This document shows positions 46,332 to 58,800 of a stretch of DNA of 64,000 nt, one piece after another. The stretch is from Rhodococcus sp. UNC23MFCrub1.1. Lineage in GTDB: Bacteria > Actinomycetota > Actinomycetes > Mycobacteriales > Mycobacteriaceae. The notes beneath the pieces are model-generated. The model ran no database searches. It saw only the letters and a list, made by a program, of their open reading frames with translations, and was not told where the DNA came from. The stretch spans positions 124,001 through 188,000 of the forward strand of contig NZ_JMLQ01000002.1 in the NCBI RefSeq assembly GCF_000686025.1. The letters are read 5' to 3'. A program made the position numbers and the translations under genes. Within the stretch, counting starts at the first letter, position 1. The number at the start of each line of letters is the position of its first letter.

Positions 46332-46922
46332 CCGAGCAACCCGACCAGTGTCGCTACCCGGCGGTAGTGTCGATGTGTGACAACAGTCTCGCGGTGTGGG
46401 TGCATGTTCCACGCCCGGTCGACGCCGCCGGGAGCGTCGCGGGCCGCATTCGGCGCGTCGGTGGGCCACGGGCGGCGCCTGTTCGGTGGAAAGTTCGACA
46501 ATCCCTCCGGAAACGGGATCGTCGACCGTTTTCGTGCCATTCCTCGTGACGGGGGTGGGGACCGTGTTCCGAAGGCGTCGTCCCTGCTCACACACCCTTT
46601 TCTCGCGTTGCGCGGCGAGCGCGTTGGGTCGCACCCGACGTGGTCGACTAGCATGGAGGGCTGCTTGCCAACGAAAGGACTGTCATCGACCACGTCGATT
46701 CATCGTCACTGATCAGCGACGTAACGAGTGGCGCCCGCATTCCGGTAAGGAATGAGGTGGAAGTGGAGCACGACGCCCACGGGCGAATCGACGGGCACAG
46801 CGCCGGGTACGGATCGCGAATCGGGGGAATCGCTGTCCTGCCACCGTTCACGACGGTGGGCTCGGTCGGCCGGGGCGCGGTGCGCGAGCACGGTGTCGCG
46901 AGAGATCACGGGGAGTAGACGA
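46332..46922 (+). promoter_or_regulatory. Long upstream region of NRPS1
   Basis: This stretch holds no convincing gene. It contains TAGCAT (46649-46654), a possible -10, with a weak TTGGGT 19 bp upstream. Around it is a perfect 11-bp inverted repeat, CGACGTGGTCG (46636-46646) and CGACCACGTCG (46687-46697). Nearer the gene is CATTCC-GGTAA-GGAATG (46738-46754). A 53-codon frame from GTG 46757 to TAG 46918 has a ribosome-binding-like AAGGAA in front and ends four bases before the NRPS1 start. It could be a leader peptide but shows no recognisable domain. No IdeR-type iron box was seen. Confidence 0.45.
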
Positions 46923-49900
46923 GTGGATGACGGTGCACGGTTCGACGGCGGACCGGCTGACGACGACCGCTCCGACGAGACGGTGACGAGCGAGACGCAG
47001 GTGAGCTCGGCGGGAGTGCTGCCCGAGGGCGCGTTCCCGCTGTCGGGAGCACAGCGCGGCATCTGGTTCGCGCAGCAGTTGGCCGGGGACGTGCCGATCG
47101 CGATCGCGCACTACGTCGAGCTGAACGGAAGTCTCGACCTCGACCGTCTCGAGTACGCGCTGGACCGGGCGGGCCGCGAGTTCGGATCGGGCTATCTGCG
47201 TCTGGCCGAGGTGGACGGCGAGCCGTTCCAGTACGTGGACCTCAGCATGCGTGATCACATCTCCTACTTCGACCTGCGCTCCGAGTCCGACCCGGAAGCC
47301 GCGGCGATGGACTGGATGACGCGCGAGTACAGCACCCCGGTGGACATGCTCGTCGACCGTCTCGTGGTGTCCCACGTGCTGCAGTTGAGCGACGAGCGGT
47401 GGTTCTGGTACTCCCGCATCCATCACGTCGCGCTCGACGGTTTCGGCGCGATGACGATGATCCAGCGCACCGCTGCGCTGTACACGGCAGCGGTGGAGGG
47501 CAGGGAGCCCGAACCCTCCAAGGCCGTCGATCTGAACGATCTCTATGTCGACGACGCCAAGTACCGGTCGTCGGACCGCTTCGAGAAGGACGCCGCGTAC
47601 TGGGCGGAGAGAGTGCGCAGCCTCCCGGATCCGCCGTCCCTCTCGGCCGTCACCGCTCCGCCGACGTCGCCCGCGCTCATCGCCGGTGGCTTCGTCTCCA
47701 CCGACCTCGCCGAGCGCCTCGACCGGCGGGTCACCGATCTCGGCACCGCGTCGGCACCGTTCGTGGTCGCCGCCTTCGCCGCGTTCGTCTCCCGCATGAC
47801 GGGGGCCGAGGACACGGTCCTGAGCCTGCCGGTCTCGGCGCGCACGACGGCGGCCATGCGTCGCTCGGGCGGCATGGTCTCCAACGTCGTCCCGCTGCGT
47901 CTCGCACTCCCGCCGAGCTGCACGGTCGCCGAGTCCGCGTCCCGCGCCCAGCTCGAACTCACCGGCGCCCTGCGCCGGCAGCGCTACCGCCACGAGGACA
48001 TTCGTCGCGACAGCGGCGAGTCGGCGACCCAACGCGGACTGTTCGGCCCGTCGATCAACATCATGCTGTTCCACGACGAGCTGCGGCTCGGCGACCTCAA
48101 CGGCTCGTACAACGTCCTGACCACGGGTCCGGTCGAGGACCTGGCGCTGAACATCTATCCCGGTGCGGACAGCCGCGAACTGCGGATCGACTTCGAGGCG
48201 AACCCGCTGCGGTACACGCAGGACCAGCTGAACGCGCATCGTGCCCGCTTCGTGCGCTTCCTCGATGCGCTGATCGATGCCGAGCCCGACGCACCGCTCG
48301 GATCGCTCGAGGTGCTGACCGACGACGAGCGGCGGCGTTTCGTCCCCGCACTGGGCGGCGAGAGCTTCCCGCAGGTCACTTTCGGCGACATCATCGCCCG
48401 CGCCGTCGACGCGGCGCCGGACACGGTGGCCGTCACGTGCGGGTCGGAATCGGTCACGTACGCAGAGCTCGACGCGCGCTCCAACCGCCTGGCCCGGCTG
48501 CTGATCTCGCGGGGCGTCGGACCGGAGAGCGTCGTCGCGGTCGCACTCGGTCGATCGGTCGAGATGATCCACGCGACGTGGTCGATCGTGGCGTCGGGCG
48601 GCGCCTTCCTGCCCATCGACCCGGCGTATCCGCTCGAGCGCATCGTGCACATGCTCGGGGACTCGGGCGCCCGGATCGGCGTGACCACCCGACGACACGT
48701 CGCGGACCTGCCGGACACGATCGACTGGCTCGTCGTCGACGACGACGAGCTGTGCGGCGACCTCGAGGTCTGCTCGCCCGCCCGCATCACCGACGCCGAG
48801 CGATCGGCTCCGGTCCGACCGTTCACCGCTGTGTGGATGATCTACACCTCGGGATCCACCGGCTTGCCGAAGGGCGTCACCGTCGGCCACGACGGACTGT
48901 CGAACATCATCGGCGAGATGACCGCCTCGTACGGGGTGTCGACGAAGTCGGTCGTCCTCGGTGTCGCGTCGCCGAGTTTCGACGCGTCCATCTTCGAGCA
49001 GCTGATGGCGCTCTCGTCGGCGACGACTCTGGCTCTCGCTCCGTCGGGGGTGTTCGGCGGAGAGGAACTCGCGGACTACATCCGCGAGAAGAACGTCACG
49101 CACGTCGTCATCACGCCGGCCGCGTTGGGATCGTTGGACCCGGACGGTCTCGAGCAGATCGAGTCGATCATCAGCGCCGGTGAGGCTTTGCCGTCCGAGG
49201 TGGCGGCACGCTGGGCTCCGCGCACGGCGCTGCGGAACGCCTACGGCCCCACCGAGACCACGATGATCGGATCGATCTCCGATCCACTGGTGCCCGGTGC
49301 TCCCGTGACCATCGGGTCGCCCATCCGAGGAACGCGACAGGTGGTGTTGGACAACAGGCTCCGGCCCGTTCCCGTGGGTGTCGTGGGTGAGCTGTATCTC
49401 GCCGGTGTGGACCTTGCCCGCGGGTACGCCAATCGCTTCGCGCTCACCGCCACGCGCTTCGTGGCCGGACCGTGGGCCGAGCCGGGCGGGCGCATGTACC
49501 GCACCGGTGACCTGGTCCGGTGGACCGAGGACGGCGACATCGTCTACGTCGGTCGCGCCGACTCGCAGGTGAAGATCCGCGGCTTCCGCATCGAACTGGG
49601 CGAGATCGACGCGGTGCTCGCCGAGCATCCCAGCGTCCGTACCGCCGTCACCGTGGCGCACCGGCAGTCGTCCGGGGCCACGGTGCTCGCGGCGTACGTC
49701 GTGCTGCGTCCGGACACGACGCTCGAGCACACCGAACTGCTACGCCATGCGGCGCAGCATCTTCCGTCGCACATGATCCCTGCCGCCGTCGTGGTCCTGG
49801 ACCGCCTGCCCGTCACCGTCAACGGCAAGATCGACCACCGGCGGCTGCCCGAGCCGGTGCTCGCGACGCGCGAGTTCCGCGCCCCGACCACCGTGGTCGA

Positions 49901-52900
49901 GGAGATCGTGGCATCCGTCTTCACGCAACTGATGGGTGTCGACCGGGTCGGACTCGACGACGACTTCTTCGCTCTCGGCGGCAACTCGCTCATCGCGACG
50001 CGCGCCGTCTCCCGTCTGGGTGCCGCACTGGGGACACAGGTCTCGGTGCGCACGTTGTTCGAGGCACCCACCGTCGAGTCGCTCGCGTCCCGGCTGCAGC
50101 AGGGTGGCCACGGCGAGACCCGCACGCCGCTGGTGCCCCGCGAGCGGACCGGGCCGGTGCCGCTGTCGCTCGCGCAGCGCCGCATGTGGTTCCTCAATCA
50201 GTTCGACCCGTCGTCGGTCGCCTACAACATCCCGTTGGCCCTGCGCCTCGAGGGTGATCTGGACATCGCCGCGCTGCAGGTCGCGATCATGGACGTCGTC
50301 GACCGCCACGAGGCGCTGCGGACGTCCTACCCGGACACCGAGAACGGACCGGTCCAGGTCGTCCACGATCCCGAGGCCGTGGTGCCGGACCTGACACCCG
50401 TGCCGGTCGACGCGGGGGATCTGCACGGCGTGCTGATCTCCTTCGCGATGACCACCTTCCAGGTCACGGAGCACGTCCCGCTGGTCGGTCGCCTGTTCCA
50501 GATCAGCGAGACCGACCACGTGCTGGCCATCGTGGTGCATCACATCTCCGCCGACGGTGCATCCCTGACACCCCTCGCGCGCGACCTGATGGCGGCCTAC
50601 AGCGCCCGCATCGCGTTCTACGCGCCCACGTGGACCCCACTGCCCGTGCAGTACGTCGACTACACGTTGTGGCAGCGGGAGGTGCTGGGGTCCGAGGACG
50701 ATCCCACGTCGCTCATCGCGCAGCAGGAGCGCTACTGGGTCGAGACCCTGCGCGACGCACCGGATCTGCTGCCGCTCCCGATCGACCGGGCCCGTCCGTC
50801 CCGGTCGTCGCTCAGCGGCGGAGCGCACGCGTTCGAGATCGATGCCGAGCTCCACGCGAAGATGATCGACCTGGCCGGGCGCCACCGCACCACGCTCTTC
50901 ATGGTGGTGCACGCGGCGCTGGCCGTGACGCTCGCCAAGATCAGTTCTACCGACGACATCGTCATCGGTACCCCGGTCGCGGGACGCGGCGACGCGGCGA
51001 TCGACGACCTCGTCGGCATGTTCGTGAACACGTTGGCGCTGCGCACCACTGTGGGCAGTCGCCAGCCGTTCGACGCGCTGCTGGACCACGTCCGCGAACG
51101 CGACCTGCAGGCGTTCGCCAACAGTGACGTGCCGTTCGAGCGTCTCGTGGAGGTGCTGTCCCCGGCGCGGTCGGAGTCGCGTCACCCGATCTTCCAGGTG
51201 ATGCTGGCGTTCGAGAACATGGGTCACTCGACGGTGGAACTCACCGGACTGCGCCTGTCCACGGTCGATCTCGACCTGCAGGTGGTCAAGTTCGATCTGC
51301 AGCTGACCATGACCGACCGCACCGACGACGCGGGCCGTCCGGCCGGTATGCCGGCCACGTTCTCGTACGCGTCGACACTGTTCGACGCCTCGACCATCGA
51401 CGCGATCACGCGCCGGTTCGTGCAGGTGCTGACCACCATCGTCGACGATCCCAGTGTGTCGGTCGCCGACATCGACGTGCTCGACGCCAGTGACCGCGTG
51501 GTCGCCGAGAGGTCGATCCAGCGCGTGTCCGAGGGCCGTCCCGTGGGCGACGACACCATCGTCTCGCGGGTGCTCGATCACGCGGCGAGCCACCCCGAGG
51601 CGAGTGCGGTGCGGTTCGGCGAGGTCTCGATCACGTACGGGGAGTTGGACTCTCGTTCGCGCGCTGCTGCAGCGAGGCTGTACGCGATGGGGGTGCGGTC
51701 CGGCGATCGGGTCGCGGTGGTGTGCGACCGATCGGTGGATCTGGTCGCCGTGCTGTTCTCCGTCATGCGGGCCGGCGCGACCTACGTGCCGATCGACCCG
51801 GAGTATCCCGGTGACCGTGTCGACTACGTCGTCGCCGACTCCGGTGCGCGCTTCGCCGTGGTCTCCGCTCGGCTCGAGGACCAGGTGCGCCGCGACGGCC
51901 TGACCGTCGTCGTGGACACCGATGTCGTGGCGCCGGAATCGGATTCGGAGGCGGGGTCCACCGCGCTGCTTCCCATGGCACGGCCGGACGACGTCGCGTA
52001 CATCATCTACACCTCCGGATCCACCGGGAACCCGAAGGGTGTCGCGATCCCGCACACCAACGTGGTGACATTGCTGACGAACACCGAGCAGTACTTCGGC
52101 TTCGGACCCGACGACGTCTGGACGATGTTCCACTCCTACGCGTTCGACTTCTCGGTGTGGGAGTTGTGGGGCGCGCTCACCACGGGCGGCAGCGTCGTCG
52201 TGGTGGACCACTGGACCGCGCGCTCGCCGGGCGACTTCCTGGACATGCTCGCCGACCGGGGCGTGACGGTGCTCAACCAGACACCGTCGGCGTTCTACCA
52301 ACTCGCCGAGGCCGAGCGCGATCGGGCGGGCACCGAGCTGTCCCTGCGCCACGTCGTCTTCGGCGGTGAGGCGCTGGATCTGTCGCAGCTGCAGCGCTGG
52401 TACGCGCGGCACGCGGACGACAGTCCCCGCCTCGTGAACATGTACGGCATCACCGAGACGACGGTGCACGTCACCTACCAGGAGCTGACGGCGGCATTCG
52501 CGGCCGCGGCCCAGGGCAGTGTGATCGGCGTTCCCGTCCCGGGGCTCGGCGGCATAGTGCTCGACGACGCCCTGCGGCCCGTGCCCGTCGGCGTTCCCGG
52601 TGAGCTCTACGTCCTGGGTGATCAGTTGGCACAGGGCTACGTCGGTCGCCCCGACCTGAACGCCACCCGGTTCGTGGCCAACCCGTACCTGGCCGGTCAG
52701 CGGATGTACCGATCCGGTGACGTCGTGCGGTGGAACCGCGACGGTGCACTGGAGTACCTCGCACGTGCGGACGCCCAGGTCCAGATTCGCGGGTTCCGCG
52801 TGGAACTGGGCGAGATCGAGACCGTGGTGGCGTCCACGCCCGGCGTCGCGGGGGCCGCGGCGTCGGTGGTGCGGCGTCCGGCCGGCGACGTCCTGGTCGC

Positions 52901-55598
52901 GTTCGTGGTGCCCGAATCGGGCTCCACGGTCGACGCGGCGGCAGTCACCGAACACGTCGCCTCGCTGTTGCCGGCGTATATGGTTCCCGCGCGCATCGTC
53001 GAGCTGGACCGTCTGCCGCTGACCGTGAACGGCAAGCTCGACCGCAAGGCGCTGCCCGAGGTCACCGAGGACTCCGATCGCACGTACCGCGCACCCGAGA
53101 CGCGGGTGGAGAAGGCGATCGCGGGGGTCTTCGAGGACATCCTCGACGTCACGCCCGTCGGCCTGGACGACGACTTCTTCGGGCTCGGCGGCAACTCGCT
53201 CGTCGCGACGCAGGTCGCGTCCCGCATCGGTACCGAACTGGGCGTGCACGTTCCGGTCCGCGCGGTGTTCGACGCGACCACCGTCGCCCGACTCGCGGCG
53301 GTCGTCGCCGAGCTCGGCGCGTCCGATCGACCCGCGCTCGTCGCCGGTCCCCGTCCCGACGTGATCCCGCTGGCACTCGCGCAGCAGCGCATGTGGCTGA
53401 GCAACCGGCTCGACCCGTCGTCGCCGATGTACAACCTGCCGTTGGGCATCCGACTCGAGGGCCGTCTCGATCTCGACGCCCTGCGCCGGGCCGTGCACGA
53501 CCTCGTGACGCGGCACGAGATCCTCCGCACCGTCTATCCCCACACGGACGGCGTACCGCGGCAGGAGATCCTGACGGTCGACGAGGCGGGCGTCGAGCTC
53601 GCGGTCGAGGACGTTCCGTCCGCGCGCTGGATCGACGAGTTCGTCGCTCTCGCGACGAGCGGCTTCGACGTCACCACGGCGGTCCCGCTGCGGCTCGCGG
53701 TCTTCCGTGACCCGGAGGTCTCCACCGAGGCCGTGCTCGCGATCGTCGTGCACCACATCGCCGCGGACGGCGTGAGCCGCGTGGCGCTGACCCGCGACCT
53801 CGTCACCGCCTACCTCGCACGCACCGAGGGCGCCGACCCCGCGTGGGCTCCGCTCCCCGTCCAGTACGCGGACTACGCGGTGTGGCAGCGCGACGTCATC
53901 GGCTCGCCCCGCGACGCCGAGTCGGTCGCGTCCGCCCAGATCGCCTACTGGAAGCAGGCTCTCGACGGCCTGCCCCCGGAGCTGGACCTGCCGCGTGACC
54001 GGGAGCGGCCGGCGTCGCCCACCCGCGAGGGTGCGTCCGTCCACTTCGCCGTGGACGGGTTCGCGGCGGACCGGGTGGAGGCACTGGCGCGCGACCACAA
54101 CGCGACGCGATTCATGGTGGTGCACGCGGCTCTCGCCGTCGTCCTCTCCCGCCTGTCCGGATCGACGGACATCGCGATCGGCACCGCTCTCGCGGGCCGC
54201 GGAGATCCGGCGCTCGACAACCTGGTCGGCATGCTCGTCAACACGGTGGCCCTGCGTCTGCGGGTCGACGAGGATCTGAGCTTCGCCGAACTGGTGGCCG
54301 CAGCCCGTCGCGTGGACGTCGACGCGTTCGCGCACTCGGAGGTGCCGTTCGAGACCGTCGTCGACGCCGTCGCGCCGCAGCGCACGGGATCGGTGCCGCC
54401 GCTCTTCCAGACCGCACTGGCGTTCCGCAACATCACGCCGGCGCGGGTGGAGCTGCCCGAGATCACCGTGTCCGAACTGGAGAATCCGTTCGAGCCCGCC
54501 AACTTCGATCTGTTGCTCACGGTCGACGACGACGGCTCGCGGAAGCCGGGCGGCGACATGACGATGATGTTCACGTACTCGACCGAGCTGTTCGACGAGG
54601 AGACGGTGGAGACCTTCGGCCGGCATCTGGCGTCGGTGCTGCGGGCCGGGGTCACCGAACCCACGCGCGTCGTCGCCGATCTGCCGCTCGCCGAGGTGGT
54701 CACCGCGGCGCCCGTGGTGGAGCCCACGACTCCCGCGCCGTACTCGGGACCATCGGTGGTCACGTCGTTCGCGTCGGCCGTGGAATCGGATCCGGACGCC
54801 CCCGCCGTCGTGATCGGCGAGAACGAGGTCAGCTACGCCGACCTCGACGCTCGTTCCAACCGCCTGGCGCGCTGGCTCGCGGGGGCAGGAGTCGGTGCCG
54901 GGTCGACGGTCGCGGTCCGGTCCGGCGACTCCGGCCTCGACACGGACACCCTGGCCCTGTGGTGGGGGATCCTCAAGGCAGGCGCGGCGTTGGACATCGG
55001 CCGAGTCGCACCCGACGTGATCGTGCTGTCCGGCGCATCCCGCAACGGGAGTCGGGCGCCGCTGATCCTGTCGGTGGACGACGCCGCCGACGACGTGGCG
55101 CAGTTCTCCGCGCGCCCCGTCACGTACGCGGATCGGGCACGCCCGCAGAACGGAGCCGATCCGGCGCTGGTCCTGCCGACCGGGACGGGCTCGGTCGGCG
55201 TGCTCACGTTCGACGAGCTCTCCGGCATCGTGTCCGCCGAACTCGATCGACTCGCCGTGGACTACGAGTCCCGGTTGTTCGCGACGGCGGCGGTCTCGAC
55301 CGTGTCGCAGGCGCTGCGGGCGCTGGTCGCCGGTGTCGCGGGCGCCGCTGTGCTGGTGCAGGACGGAGCGGCGGAGTCGCTGACGGACGTGCTGCTCGAT
55401 CAGTGGGTGACGCACCTGTTCGCCACCCCGTCGGACCTGTCGGCGGTGGACGCCGGGGAGTTCGAGGATCTCGCCGTGGTGGTCACCGACGCGGGCCGGG
55501 GCGACAGCGAGTCGTGCGACGGCTTCGCCGACGGCACCGAGATCGACGTCGTGCCGTTGACCTCGACGGGTATCGGACTCGCCATGCGGAGCTCATGA
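46923..55598 (+). CDS. Nonribosomal peptide synthetase NRPS1: C-A-T-C-A-T-C-(relic A)
   Basis: This 2,891-residue multimodular synthetase has modules as follows (approximate residues). C1: HHVALDG at 167. A1: YTSGSTG at 640. T1: LGGNSL serine near 1022. C2: HHISADG at 1205. A2: YTSGSTG at 1696. T2: LGGNSL serine near 2092. C3: HHIAADG at 2275. From 2613 on there is a truncated degenerate A domain with no carrier. Pocket residues of A2, read by alignment to GrsA, give D-F-W-N-V-G-M-V-H, the threonine code; A1 gives D-A-F-V-I-A-A-M-I, not assignable. An N-terminal C domain implies an acyl starter or an upstream chain. GTG 46923 has GGGGAG seven bases before. No epimerase or thioesterase is present. 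Confidence 0.95.
54759..55598 (+). other. Relic adenylation domain at the NRPS1 C-terminus
   Basis: Residues 2613-2891 of NRPS1 align with the first part of an A domain: [24 protein letters not shown] and [17 protein letters not shown] (A1-A2 core). The ATP-binding YTSGSTGxPKG motif is replaced by LPTGTGSVG with no lysine. The A4-A5 region is eroded (VVVTDAG for the usual VVAGEA, then PLTSTG where YGPTE is expected). The C-terminal subdomain and carrier are absent. The frame stays open with normal codon use, so it appears maintained rather than freshly broken. Confidence 0.75.
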
Positions 55599-55809
55599 CG
55601 GGATCCGTCCACACCACGGAGACAGGCGCCGTTCACACCACCCGGGTGAGCGGCGTGCGCGCCGCCCTGCTCGATAGGGTGGATCAGATGGGGCGACGCC
55701 CCATGAAGCACGCGTGCGCGCATCCGCGGGGAGTGTCGCGAGTACGCAGCGGGATCGTCGGTGGGCAACCACGGGCGAGGCTCGGTATCGATTCACGAGG
55801 AGCACGACG
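55599..55809 (+). promoter_or_regulatory. NRPS1-NRPS2 gap with palindrome and possible promoter
   Basis: The 211-bp gap is long for genes that split one module. TAGGGT (55675-55680) is a possible -10 without a clear -35. Just downstream, ATGGGGCGACGCCCCAT (55688-55704) is a perfect 7-bp-arm palindrome with a GAC loop, able to act as operator or attenuator. AGGAG (55798-55802) is the ribosome-binding site for NRPS2, seven bases before its ATG. Confidence 0.5.
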
Positions 55810-58800
55810 ATGACGGATGGCACTCCCGACGAGACCTCGAACGAGGACCGGTCGCGGGCGGAACGTCCGGGACGCGCGGGGGCACCCCGCCGCGAGCGTC
55901 CGACCAGGGAACGCCCGCGTCGCCGGCAGCGTCCTCGCGCGGCCACCCTGCCGCAGATCCTCGCGGCCGCCGTGGAGGCGAACGCCGACGGTGTGGCTCT
56001 CGTGTTCCGCGACGAGTCCGGCGCGACCACCGAGTGGACCTACCGCGAGCTCGATGCGGCGTCGTCGAAGCTGGCGCGCGAGCTGATCGCGCGCGGCATC
56101 GGCGCCGAGGACGTGGTGGCGCTGGCCGTCACGCGGTCCGCCGAGTCGATCCTGTCGATCTGGGCGGTCGCCAAGACCGGTGCGGCATACGTGCCGGTCG
56201 ATCCGAAGTACCCCGCGGACCGCATCGAGTACATGCTCACCGATTCGGGGGCCACCCTCGGGATCACCACTACGGAGCACCGCGAGACCCTGCCGGAGGG
56301 AGTGGGCCCCAGCTGGCTCGTCCTGGGCGACGCCGACCTGGACGCCGCCGTCGACGCACGGTCCGCCGAGCCGGTCACCTACGCCGATCGCGTGCGGGTG
56401 CTCGGCCCCGCGAACACGGCCTACATGATCTACACGTCCGGATCGACGGGTCGACCCAAGGGCGTCGAGGTGACGCACGCCGGCCTCTCGAGCCTGGTCG
56501 CCGAGCAGCGTGAGCGCTTCGGTATCGACGCGTCCGCCCGCACCCTCGCCGTCGCGTCCCCGAGCTTCGACGCCTCGGTCTTCGAACTGCTCATGGCCGT
56601 GGGGTCCGGAGCGACGATGGTCGTCTCGCCGCCCGACGTCTTCGGTGGCGACGATCTGACGGCTCTGCTGCACGAGCAGCGGGTGACCCATGCCGTCATC
56701 ACCCCGTCCGTGCTGGCCTCGGTCACGCCGTCGGAGTTGCCCGACCTGCGGGTCGTGGTCACCGCCGGTGAGGCGTGCCCGCCGGAACTGGTGTCCCGCT
56801 TCGTGACCGACACCCGCCGCATGTTCAACGGCTTCGGTCCGACCGAGGCCACCATCATGACCAACTGCGCGGAGCTGTTCCCGGACGCGCCCGTCTCCAT
56901 CGGCGGCGCGATCCGCGACTTCCGCACGCCCGTGCTCGACGGCCGCCTGCGCGACGTCCCGGCCGGTGTCGCCGGTGAGCTGTACGCGGCCGGCCCCGGT
57001 CTGGCCCGCGGGTATCACGGTCGGCCGTCGCTCACCGCGGAGCGTTTCGTCGCGGACCCCTTCGGTGAACCCGGCTCGCGCGTGTACCGCACCGGTGACC
57101 TCGCCCGCGTGCGCAGCGGCGGCGCGGTCGACTACCTGGGCCGCTCCGACTTCCAGGTGAAGGTCCGCGGGTTCCGCATCGAACTCGGCGAGATCGACGC
57201 CGCCCTGACGGCGCACCCGGACGTCCGCTTCGCCGCGGCGGCCGGTCATCAGCTGCCCGACGGCTCGACGGTGCTCGTGGCCTACGTGCAGCCCGAGCCG
57301 GGCCACGAGATCGACGTCGACGACGTCACGGCCTTCGTCGGCCGGAGCCTCACCGCGTACATGGTGCCGTCCGAGATCATCGTCATCGACGCCGTGCCCC
57401 TCACACCCGTCGGCAAGCTCGATCGCGCGGCGCTGCCGCAGCCGACCATCGGCACGTCGACGAAGGAGTACCGGGCTCCCGAGACCCGGACCGAGATCAC
57501 GGTGTCCGAGGTGCTGGCGGACCTGTTGTCGGCCGAGCGCGTGGGTCTGGACGACACCTTCTTCGAACTCGGTGGCAACTCGCTGCTCGCGACGCAGGTG
57601 GTCGCCCGGATCAACCAGGCGGCGCAGTCCCGCATCGCGGTGCGGGACGTGTTCGAGGCGACCTCGGTCGCGGATCTCGCCGCGCGCGTGGATCTCTCGC
57701 TCGGTGCCCCCGAGCGGCCGCCGCTCGTGCGCCGTGACCGCTCGGGCGACCTGCCGCTGTCCTACGCCCAGCAGCGGATGTGGCTCACCAACCAGTACGA
57801 CGTGACGTCGCCCGCGTACAACCAGCCGGTCGTGCTGCGGATGACGGGTGCGCTGGATCTCGAGGCGCTCGGCCACGCGTTCGAGGATCTCATCACGCGG
57901 CACGAGACGCTGCGCACCGTCTACCCGCAGACCGACAGTGGTCCGGTGCAGCGCATCGAGCCCGCGTCGTCGGTGTCGGTGGTGCTCGATCCGGAGCGGA
58001 TCGACGAGAGCTCGGTGTACGAGCGACTGACCCCGGTGGTGCTCGACGGCTTCGACGTGTCGTCCTCGGTACCCTTCCGTGCCAAGCTGTTCCAGATCGC
58101 GGACCAGGACTACGTCCTCGCCGTGGTCATGCACCACATCGCCAGTGACGGTGGATCTCTCGCCCCGCTGGTGCGCGACCTCACCACGGCCTACGTGGCG
58201 CGCAGCGCCGGTGCGGCTCCCGAGCTGCCCGAGCTCGAGGTGCAGTACGCGGACTACGCGATGTGGCACCGTGAGCTCCTCGGCGACGAGAGCGACCCGG
58301 AGTCGTTGAGCGCCAAGCAGATCGACTTCTGGACGCGCGCCCTCGCCGGTACTCCCGAGGTCATCGAACTCCCCTCCGACCGGACGCGACCGGCGCAGCC
58401 GTCGTCCCGCGGTGCGACGGTGCCGTTCCGACTCGAGTCGGACGTCGTCGAGGGTCTGAACGACCTCGCGCGACGCACCAACTCGACGCTGTTCATGGTG
58501 GTGCACGCCGCCCTGGCCGTGCTGCTCTCGCGCATGGCCGCGACCGACGACGTGTCCGTCGGCACGCAGATCGCGGGCCGCGGCGAGCAGGCGCTCGATC
58601 CGCTCGTCGGCATGTTCGGCAACACGCTGGTCCTGCGATCGCATCTGGAGCCGGGGGAGTCGTTCGAGGACTTCCTGCTCCGCACCCGCACCGCGGACCT
58701 CGATGCACTGGGCAACTCGGACCTGCCGCTGGACCGGCTGGTCGAGATCCTGCGACCCCAGCGCTCGCTCGCCTACGCGCCGCTGTTCCAGGTACTGCTC

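Follow-up and report, generated by a model that had tools for sequence, protein, structure and literature searches.

A truncated adenylation-like domain at the end of a Rhodococcus peptide synthetase, a candidate docking element for the next protein of the line

Docking domains of the COM, PAX and beta-hairpin kinds are short terminal peptides, helix or hairpin elements. The available text of PMC9113145 likewise describes them as short regions, mentions split modules for polyketide synthases only and names no docking class derived from an adenylation (A) domain. According to the accessible portion of PMC8949500, the albicidin, cystobactamid, ramoplanin and enduracidin lines contain an inactive A domain that is complemented in trans by a stand-alone A-T, and the X domain of glycopeptide nonribosomal peptide synthetases (NRPSs) is a degenerate condensation (C) domain that recruits P450 oxygenases. 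Partial, inactive A domains without their N-terminal part appear, in excerpts of the respective papers, in SidD/Nps6 (PMC10192304) and glidonin synthetase (PMC10587159). The fusaoctaxin synthetases NRPS5/NRPS9 of Fusarium have a truncated A domain where the second protein begins, in its first module, with no docking role proposed for it in the available part of that source (PMC6563249). A search of the PMC literature, as far as its text was accessible and with subscription papers and preprints outside its scope, returned no C-terminal truncated A domain named as an interface.

The window analysed here, a 64,000-nucleotide stretch of the genome of Rhodococcus sp. UNC23MFCrub1.1, contains two consecutive NRPS frames, both on the forward strand, as are all window features given below. 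NRPS1 (46752..55598) is an open frame of 2948 aa to which domain models assign the layout C-A-T-C-A-T-C-A*; its real start codon may sit later, around residue 77. The final carrier, T2 (53097..53324, model match at aa 2116-2191), would be the donor for the condensation domain C3 (53364..54698, aa 2205-2649), whose HHxxxDG motif is intact (HHIAADG). After C3 come 299 aa that are recognisable as an A domain in parts only (54699..55595). This is A*, a truncated pseudo-adenylation domain and proposed C-terminal docking or adaptor domain.

The A* of the window matches positions 2-72 of 384 in the Pfam AMP-binding model, above the Pfam gathering score, and positions 1-67 and 110-276 of 401 in an A-domain model built in this analysis; it reaches 33 bits against a TIGR01733 cut-off of 317. 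The N-terminal half of the A-core fold is present, as judged by Pfam, by aligning the structure model to the A cores of C-A structures and by comparing an A* profile with solved A domains. A remnant of the P-loop (A3) at 55173..55199 reads LPTGTGSVG in place of YTSGSTGxPKG. The C-terminal region of NRPS1 also lacks YGPTE, A-sub and a carrier, both in the sequence and in the domain models. The alignment also places a WVTH motif at 55404..55415; its W and H are invariant among 25 aligned A* rows, and NRPS1 stops about 60 aa further on.

An intergenic gap of 211 bp (55599..55809) separates the NRPS1 stop from the start of NRPS2, an ATG at 55810 with GAGGA upstream. NRPS2 opens with an Arg-rich tail (aa 1-46, 55810..55947), the proposed docking partner of A*, followed by an A domain with an intact P-loop and no C domain in front of it (55948..57456, models at aa 56-549) and by a T domain (57481..57693, aa 558-628), the proposed trans acceptor for C3. 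The original prediction had described NRPS1 as ending in C3 and a truncated A-like region without P-loop, A5 core or carrier, and NRPS2 as starting with an intact A-T that lacks a C domain; sequence and domain models agree with both descriptions. Its C-terminal segment of 279 residues is indeed A-like, although that length corresponds roughly to the A-like core and not to the 299 aa that follow the C3 model match. In its own genome NRPS2 is 8835 aa long and runs A-T-C-A-T-C-A-T, a weakly C-matched region, five more C-A-T and a TE-like end. We read the weakly matched region as a putative epimerisation domain, the E and TE labels being our own. The genome also encodes NRPS3 (G000:C2:208159-216657 = L039:3159-11657), a protein of 2832 aa with the same C-A-T-C-A-T-C-A* layout as NRPS1.

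An assembly error is unlikely, since the same junction is present in a second genome of the same species (L203) and in Rhodococcus sp. Leaf247, whose A* has 64% identity to that of the window. These two genomes and the family survey make recent decay unlikely as well, and the 127 homologous A* cases of that survey exclude chance. Related strains with an intact A-T at this position had been named in advance as a sign of decay or misassembly; the three other genomes seen with this cluster (G061, G002 and G016) all carry A* and not an intact A-T. The wide survey picks A*-like sequence and cannot alone show that no relative is intact.

The first segment used as a query (P0001) matched at E 1e-20 or better in 31 of 61 genomes (the genome of the window and 60 relatives), and in the fetched loci the matched frames mostly stop just past the match. 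A profile of 25 A* sequences (A1) scored at least 264 bits in 33 of the 37 genomes of the genus; the matches listed at 229 bits or below were for the most part ordinary A domains, besides a few divergent A*, for instance those of G010:C39 (229) and G016 (193). Since G016 adds an A* by P0001, A* occurs in 34 of the 37. A further profile made from the C-terminal half of A* (A2) was run over 301 genomes of the family, and 95 further loci were fetched; loci were chosen by profile score, with listed matches outside the genus going down to about 104 bits. Altogether 134 locus readings gave 127 A* domains distinct by their last 150 aa (near-identical strains stay in), from 99 genomes and nine genera of one family. 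The original prediction had suggested searching the C-terminal segment for conserved orthologues; with these homologues, the idea of a relic particular to this break gives way to that of a domain domesticated across the family. Named carriers are Rhodococcus sp. Leaf247, R. phenolicus, R. aetherivorans, R. coprophilus and Rhodococcus sp. HM1, SMB37, HNM0563 and 105337.

Outside the family, no A*-like score was found among the best nine candidates per genome at order level (397 genomes, E 1e-22) or class level (394 genomes, E 1e-20), both of which sets include family members; the best score there was 83 bits, in the range of ordinary A domains, and distant forms could be missed by profiles derived from the family. 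Plasmid matches in Nocardia farcinica and Rhodococcus DK17 were rejected as ordinary internal C-A. Three Nocardia records (L086-L088, ORF from 4868) contain a protein that begins with a basic stretch and a degenerate A, with no T hit, followed by C; this degenerate A scores higher as A* than as A.

In all 134 loci read, A* is the C-terminal part of its frame, with 0-36 aa between it and a stop; like docking domains as a class, it is a terminal element at a subunit boundary. Across the A* set, 247-322 aa with an A-like fold follow the C-model match. The P-loop is found in 0/127 and YGPTE in 0/127, the frames ending before the YGPTE position. HHxxxDG is kept in 124/124 testable C domains preceding A*, and the P-loop in 107 of the 108 testable partner A domains; the sole exception is L174 (G091), where the A-start partner is also without one. 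Judged by motif, the C domain would be able, the A in cis dead and the A in trans able.

With at least 1.4 kb of downstream sequence, 109 of the 118 distinct A* have as their next NRPS frame one that opens with an A domain (A-start); none has one opening with C or T, and nine have no NRPS frame nearby. Because neighbouring loci share descent, the independent events are fewer than 109. Including short contigs, the figures for all 127 are 111 A-start and 16 with none. The partner A is interrupted in its frame in L027 and L147. In 111/111 cases the 40 aa before the partner A have a net charge of at least +5, with means of 10.0 basic and 2.6 acidic residues; the 40 aa were counted back from the A model along the partner frame and, in some proteins, extend past the likely start codon into upstream sequence. 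Internal C-A linkers from the clusters of the window's own genome, G032 and G001 reach +5 in 0/56 cases, with a maximum of 0, and a smaller first control gave 0/18. The arginines are positional, with R-9 in 99/107 tails, R-4 in 90/107 and R-12 in 82/107. Per 100 aa, the charge is -9.0 in A* and -4.9 in the first 270 aa of the partner A, which makes A* the more acidic. A pair-specific docking code found no support: in a partial Mantel test on 107 pairs, with C and A-body distances removed, co-variation of A* and tail had a partial correlation of 0.018, a value reached in 92 of 300 permutations. Variation in the tail instead tracks the A body of its own protein (0.36).

We consider it probable, on these sequence patterns, that A* is a domesticated pseudo-A to which the first, Arg-tailed module of the following protein docks, with C3 working in trans. 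The break would then be a functional split module, in which the A and T of NRPS2 complete the module begun by C3 of NRPS1. A*, a domesticated non-catalytic A domain, would form the receptor half of the docking interface and hold the Arg-tailed N-terminus and first A of NRPS2 near C3, which would join the chain on T2 of NRPS1 to the aminoacyl-T of NRPS2. The contact between A* and NRPS2, an attraction of the basic tail to the acidic A* by charge, and the trans activity of C3 are what we infer from these patterns. The original prediction, in which C3 acts in trans and the relic A serves as a platform, is thus favoured as far as the interface is concerned, by the rule that an A-start follows C-A* and by the Arg tail. 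The predicted structure gives no sign that A* occupies the canonical C-A platform position.

Structure predictions bear on two other readings. An AlphaFold model of tethered A* and A reached a pTM of 0.82, with a tail pLDDT of about 35-68. Single A cores align from residues 1-11 of this model in many rows, so a swap between the homologous tandem domains is possible; since such a swap may explain the model, we did not count its A*-A contact. If taken at face value, the model would fit a role of A* as an activity partner of the incoming A, an MbtH-like chaperone or allosteric subunit and not a docking platform, as would the A-start found in every next frame. The evidence fits this role and docking alike, but the tail rule suggests recognition over control of catalysis, and we think the role unlikely. 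It seems similarly improbable that A* acts solely as a structural cap, keeping the terminal C folded and taking no part in recognising NRPS2. A* does covalently adjoin C and is predicted to be well folded, mostly with a pLDDT of at least 90. However, the model of C-A* (pTM 0.69) has a linker with a pLDDT below 60, and about 700 of its residues align with solved C-A didomains at about 21-25 Å rmsd only. The relative orientation is uncertain, and a retained canonical C-A platform is unsupported by the prediction. A terminal C without A* also occurs in the same genus (G032 protein 5, which ends 8 aa past the C-model match), and a cap would leave the Arg tail of the next protein unexplained.

All 126 A* fall into a single pure clade (support 0.914), to which long-branch attraction may have contributed, in a tree whose other members are 108 A-start domains, which are mixed, and 58 internal A domains. 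The dN/dS of A* has a median of 0.22 and a maximum of 0.34 over 94 close pairs (of 100 candidate pairs; the pairs are not independent), compared with medians of 0.11 for C and 0.12 for A-start (83 pairs). A* thus changes at roughly double the rate of C and A. The A* of the window has a dN/dS of 0.30 when compared with Leaf247, where C has 0.13 and A 0.12, and of 0.41 when compared with G016. In comparisons between species the A* of NRPS3 reaches 0.44 and 0.54, and the A* of NRPS1 and NRPS3 compared with each other give 0.54-0.59. Within the species there are too few changes to judge, with two synonymous and two non-synonymous in the NRPS1 A* (dN/dS 0.65) and four of each in the NRPS3 A* (0.39). 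By the close pairs, A* is under purifying selection, the lack of which would have pointed to recent decay. That A* is a functionless, decaying relic of gene splitting is very improbable: it evolves faster than its neighbours, most of all in the NRPS3 copy, and has lost its catalytic motifs, but the dN/dS of the close pairs never exceeds 0.34, and one clade with a similar truncation point and invariant R, G, W and H residues extends through nine genera. Taken together, the comparisons make A* a conserved and selected domain, non-catalytic by motif, that is tied to one kind of protein boundary.

A second device occurs at other C|A breaks: each side carries a mini-pseudo-A some 90 aa long, and these copies are mutually similar (27-55% identity to the first row). 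Examples are L223:13111-13386, L223:13535-13864, L225:15489-15803, L230:3434-3736 and L230:2941-3255. Of 66 matches in the genus at 92 bits or more (19 of 85 rows, below 92 bits, were left out of the pairing), all but six are paired, and the 30 pairs flank a gene boundary, in 30/37 genomes. The pairs have gaps of 90-209 nt and frames of different length. Within the family, 108 of 301 genomes have a mini-pseudo-A match (E 1e-16); the genus search of 37 genomes found none in the genome of the window. Three A-start proteins that begin with a mini-pseudo-A have no Arg tail, with net charges of -6, -2 and -5. The small genomes G005, G015 and G034 have no A* score; each encodes an NRPS frame of some 11,400 aa, perhaps a fused line, in which two weak internal matches to the mini-pseudo-A occur. 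A fragments have seemingly been recruited twice, as A* and as mini-pseudo-A, which strengthens the docking reading.

If A* does dock Arg-tailed proteins, one NRPS2 line may be served by alternative entry proteins. Judged from the gene layout, NRPS1 and NRPS3 may be such a pair: no A-start NRPS frame was found in the 8 kb read downstream of NRPS3, and no Arg-tailed A-start protein other than NRPS2 among the NRPS frames read in this genome. A second C-A* protein beside NRPS1 and NRPS2 is also present in G061, G002 and G016. At what we take to be the pocket landmark positions, the predicted A-pocket residues of the two entry proteins are not the same, and there may therefore be two sets of products. 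Four further multimodular NRPS lines were found in the genome; each is a single frame that has no A*. A* and Arg tails also occur together in the G032 and G001 clusters; the numbers of A* and Arg-tailed acceptors are 2/1 in the window's own genome, 2/2 in G032 (105 kb read) and 2/3 in G001 (65 kb read). Since donor and acceptor numbers do not always match, we tentatively suggest, as an idea that could well be wrong, that one family has turned A fragments into its own docking set (A* with Arg tail, and mini-pseudo-A pairs) and uses it as a many-to-many switchboard, with several entry proteins per line and hence peptide families. In the G032 cluster (L222-L227), the docking elements suggest a non-colinear or branched order, in which protein 1 is followed by 2 or 6 and these by 3 or 5.

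Should the docking reading be true, A* would represent a new class of inter-subunit connector for NRPSs, made from a dead catalytic domain, at the C|A boundary, for which the literature examined describes no connector in its available text. It would also provide a sequence rule to predict protein order in many uncharacterised Rhodococcus-type clusters, where cluster annotation might otherwise read A* as a broken module, and perhaps a part with which C and A-T from different lines could be joined.

Among the systems known so far, A* resembles in position the COM, PAX and beta-hairpin docking domains, which order NRPS subunits and, like A*, are terminal elements at a subunit boundary; going by the available part of that source, it differs from them in being a truncated A domain of 247-322 aa at a C|A boundary (PMC9113145). 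With the albicidin, cystobactamid, ramoplanin and enduracidin lines it shares a degenerate A domain and an amino acid supplied by a separate A-T. There, as the accessible text has it, the dead A is part of the main line and the A-T stands alone as a module of its own, whereas A* ends its protein without a carrier and the A-T opens the next, multimodular and Arg-tailed protein (PMC8949500). SidD/Nps6 (PMC10192304) and glidonin synthetase (PMC10587159) likewise retain inactive, truncated A domains, but in the excerpts at hand it is the N-terminal part that these lack; A* has kept that part and lost the rest, and stands at the protein end. The fusaoctaxin pair NRPS5/NRPS9 also has a truncated A at the boundary of two NRPS proteins working in tandem, although it is fungal and, in the portion of the paper available, the truncated A belongs to the second protein (PMC6563249). 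The X domain and A* are both catalytically dead NRPS domains, and the X domain has, according to the same partial text as above, been kept as a recruitment platform (PMC8949500). A* would be its counterpart among degenerate A domains, and its proposed guest is the next NRPS.
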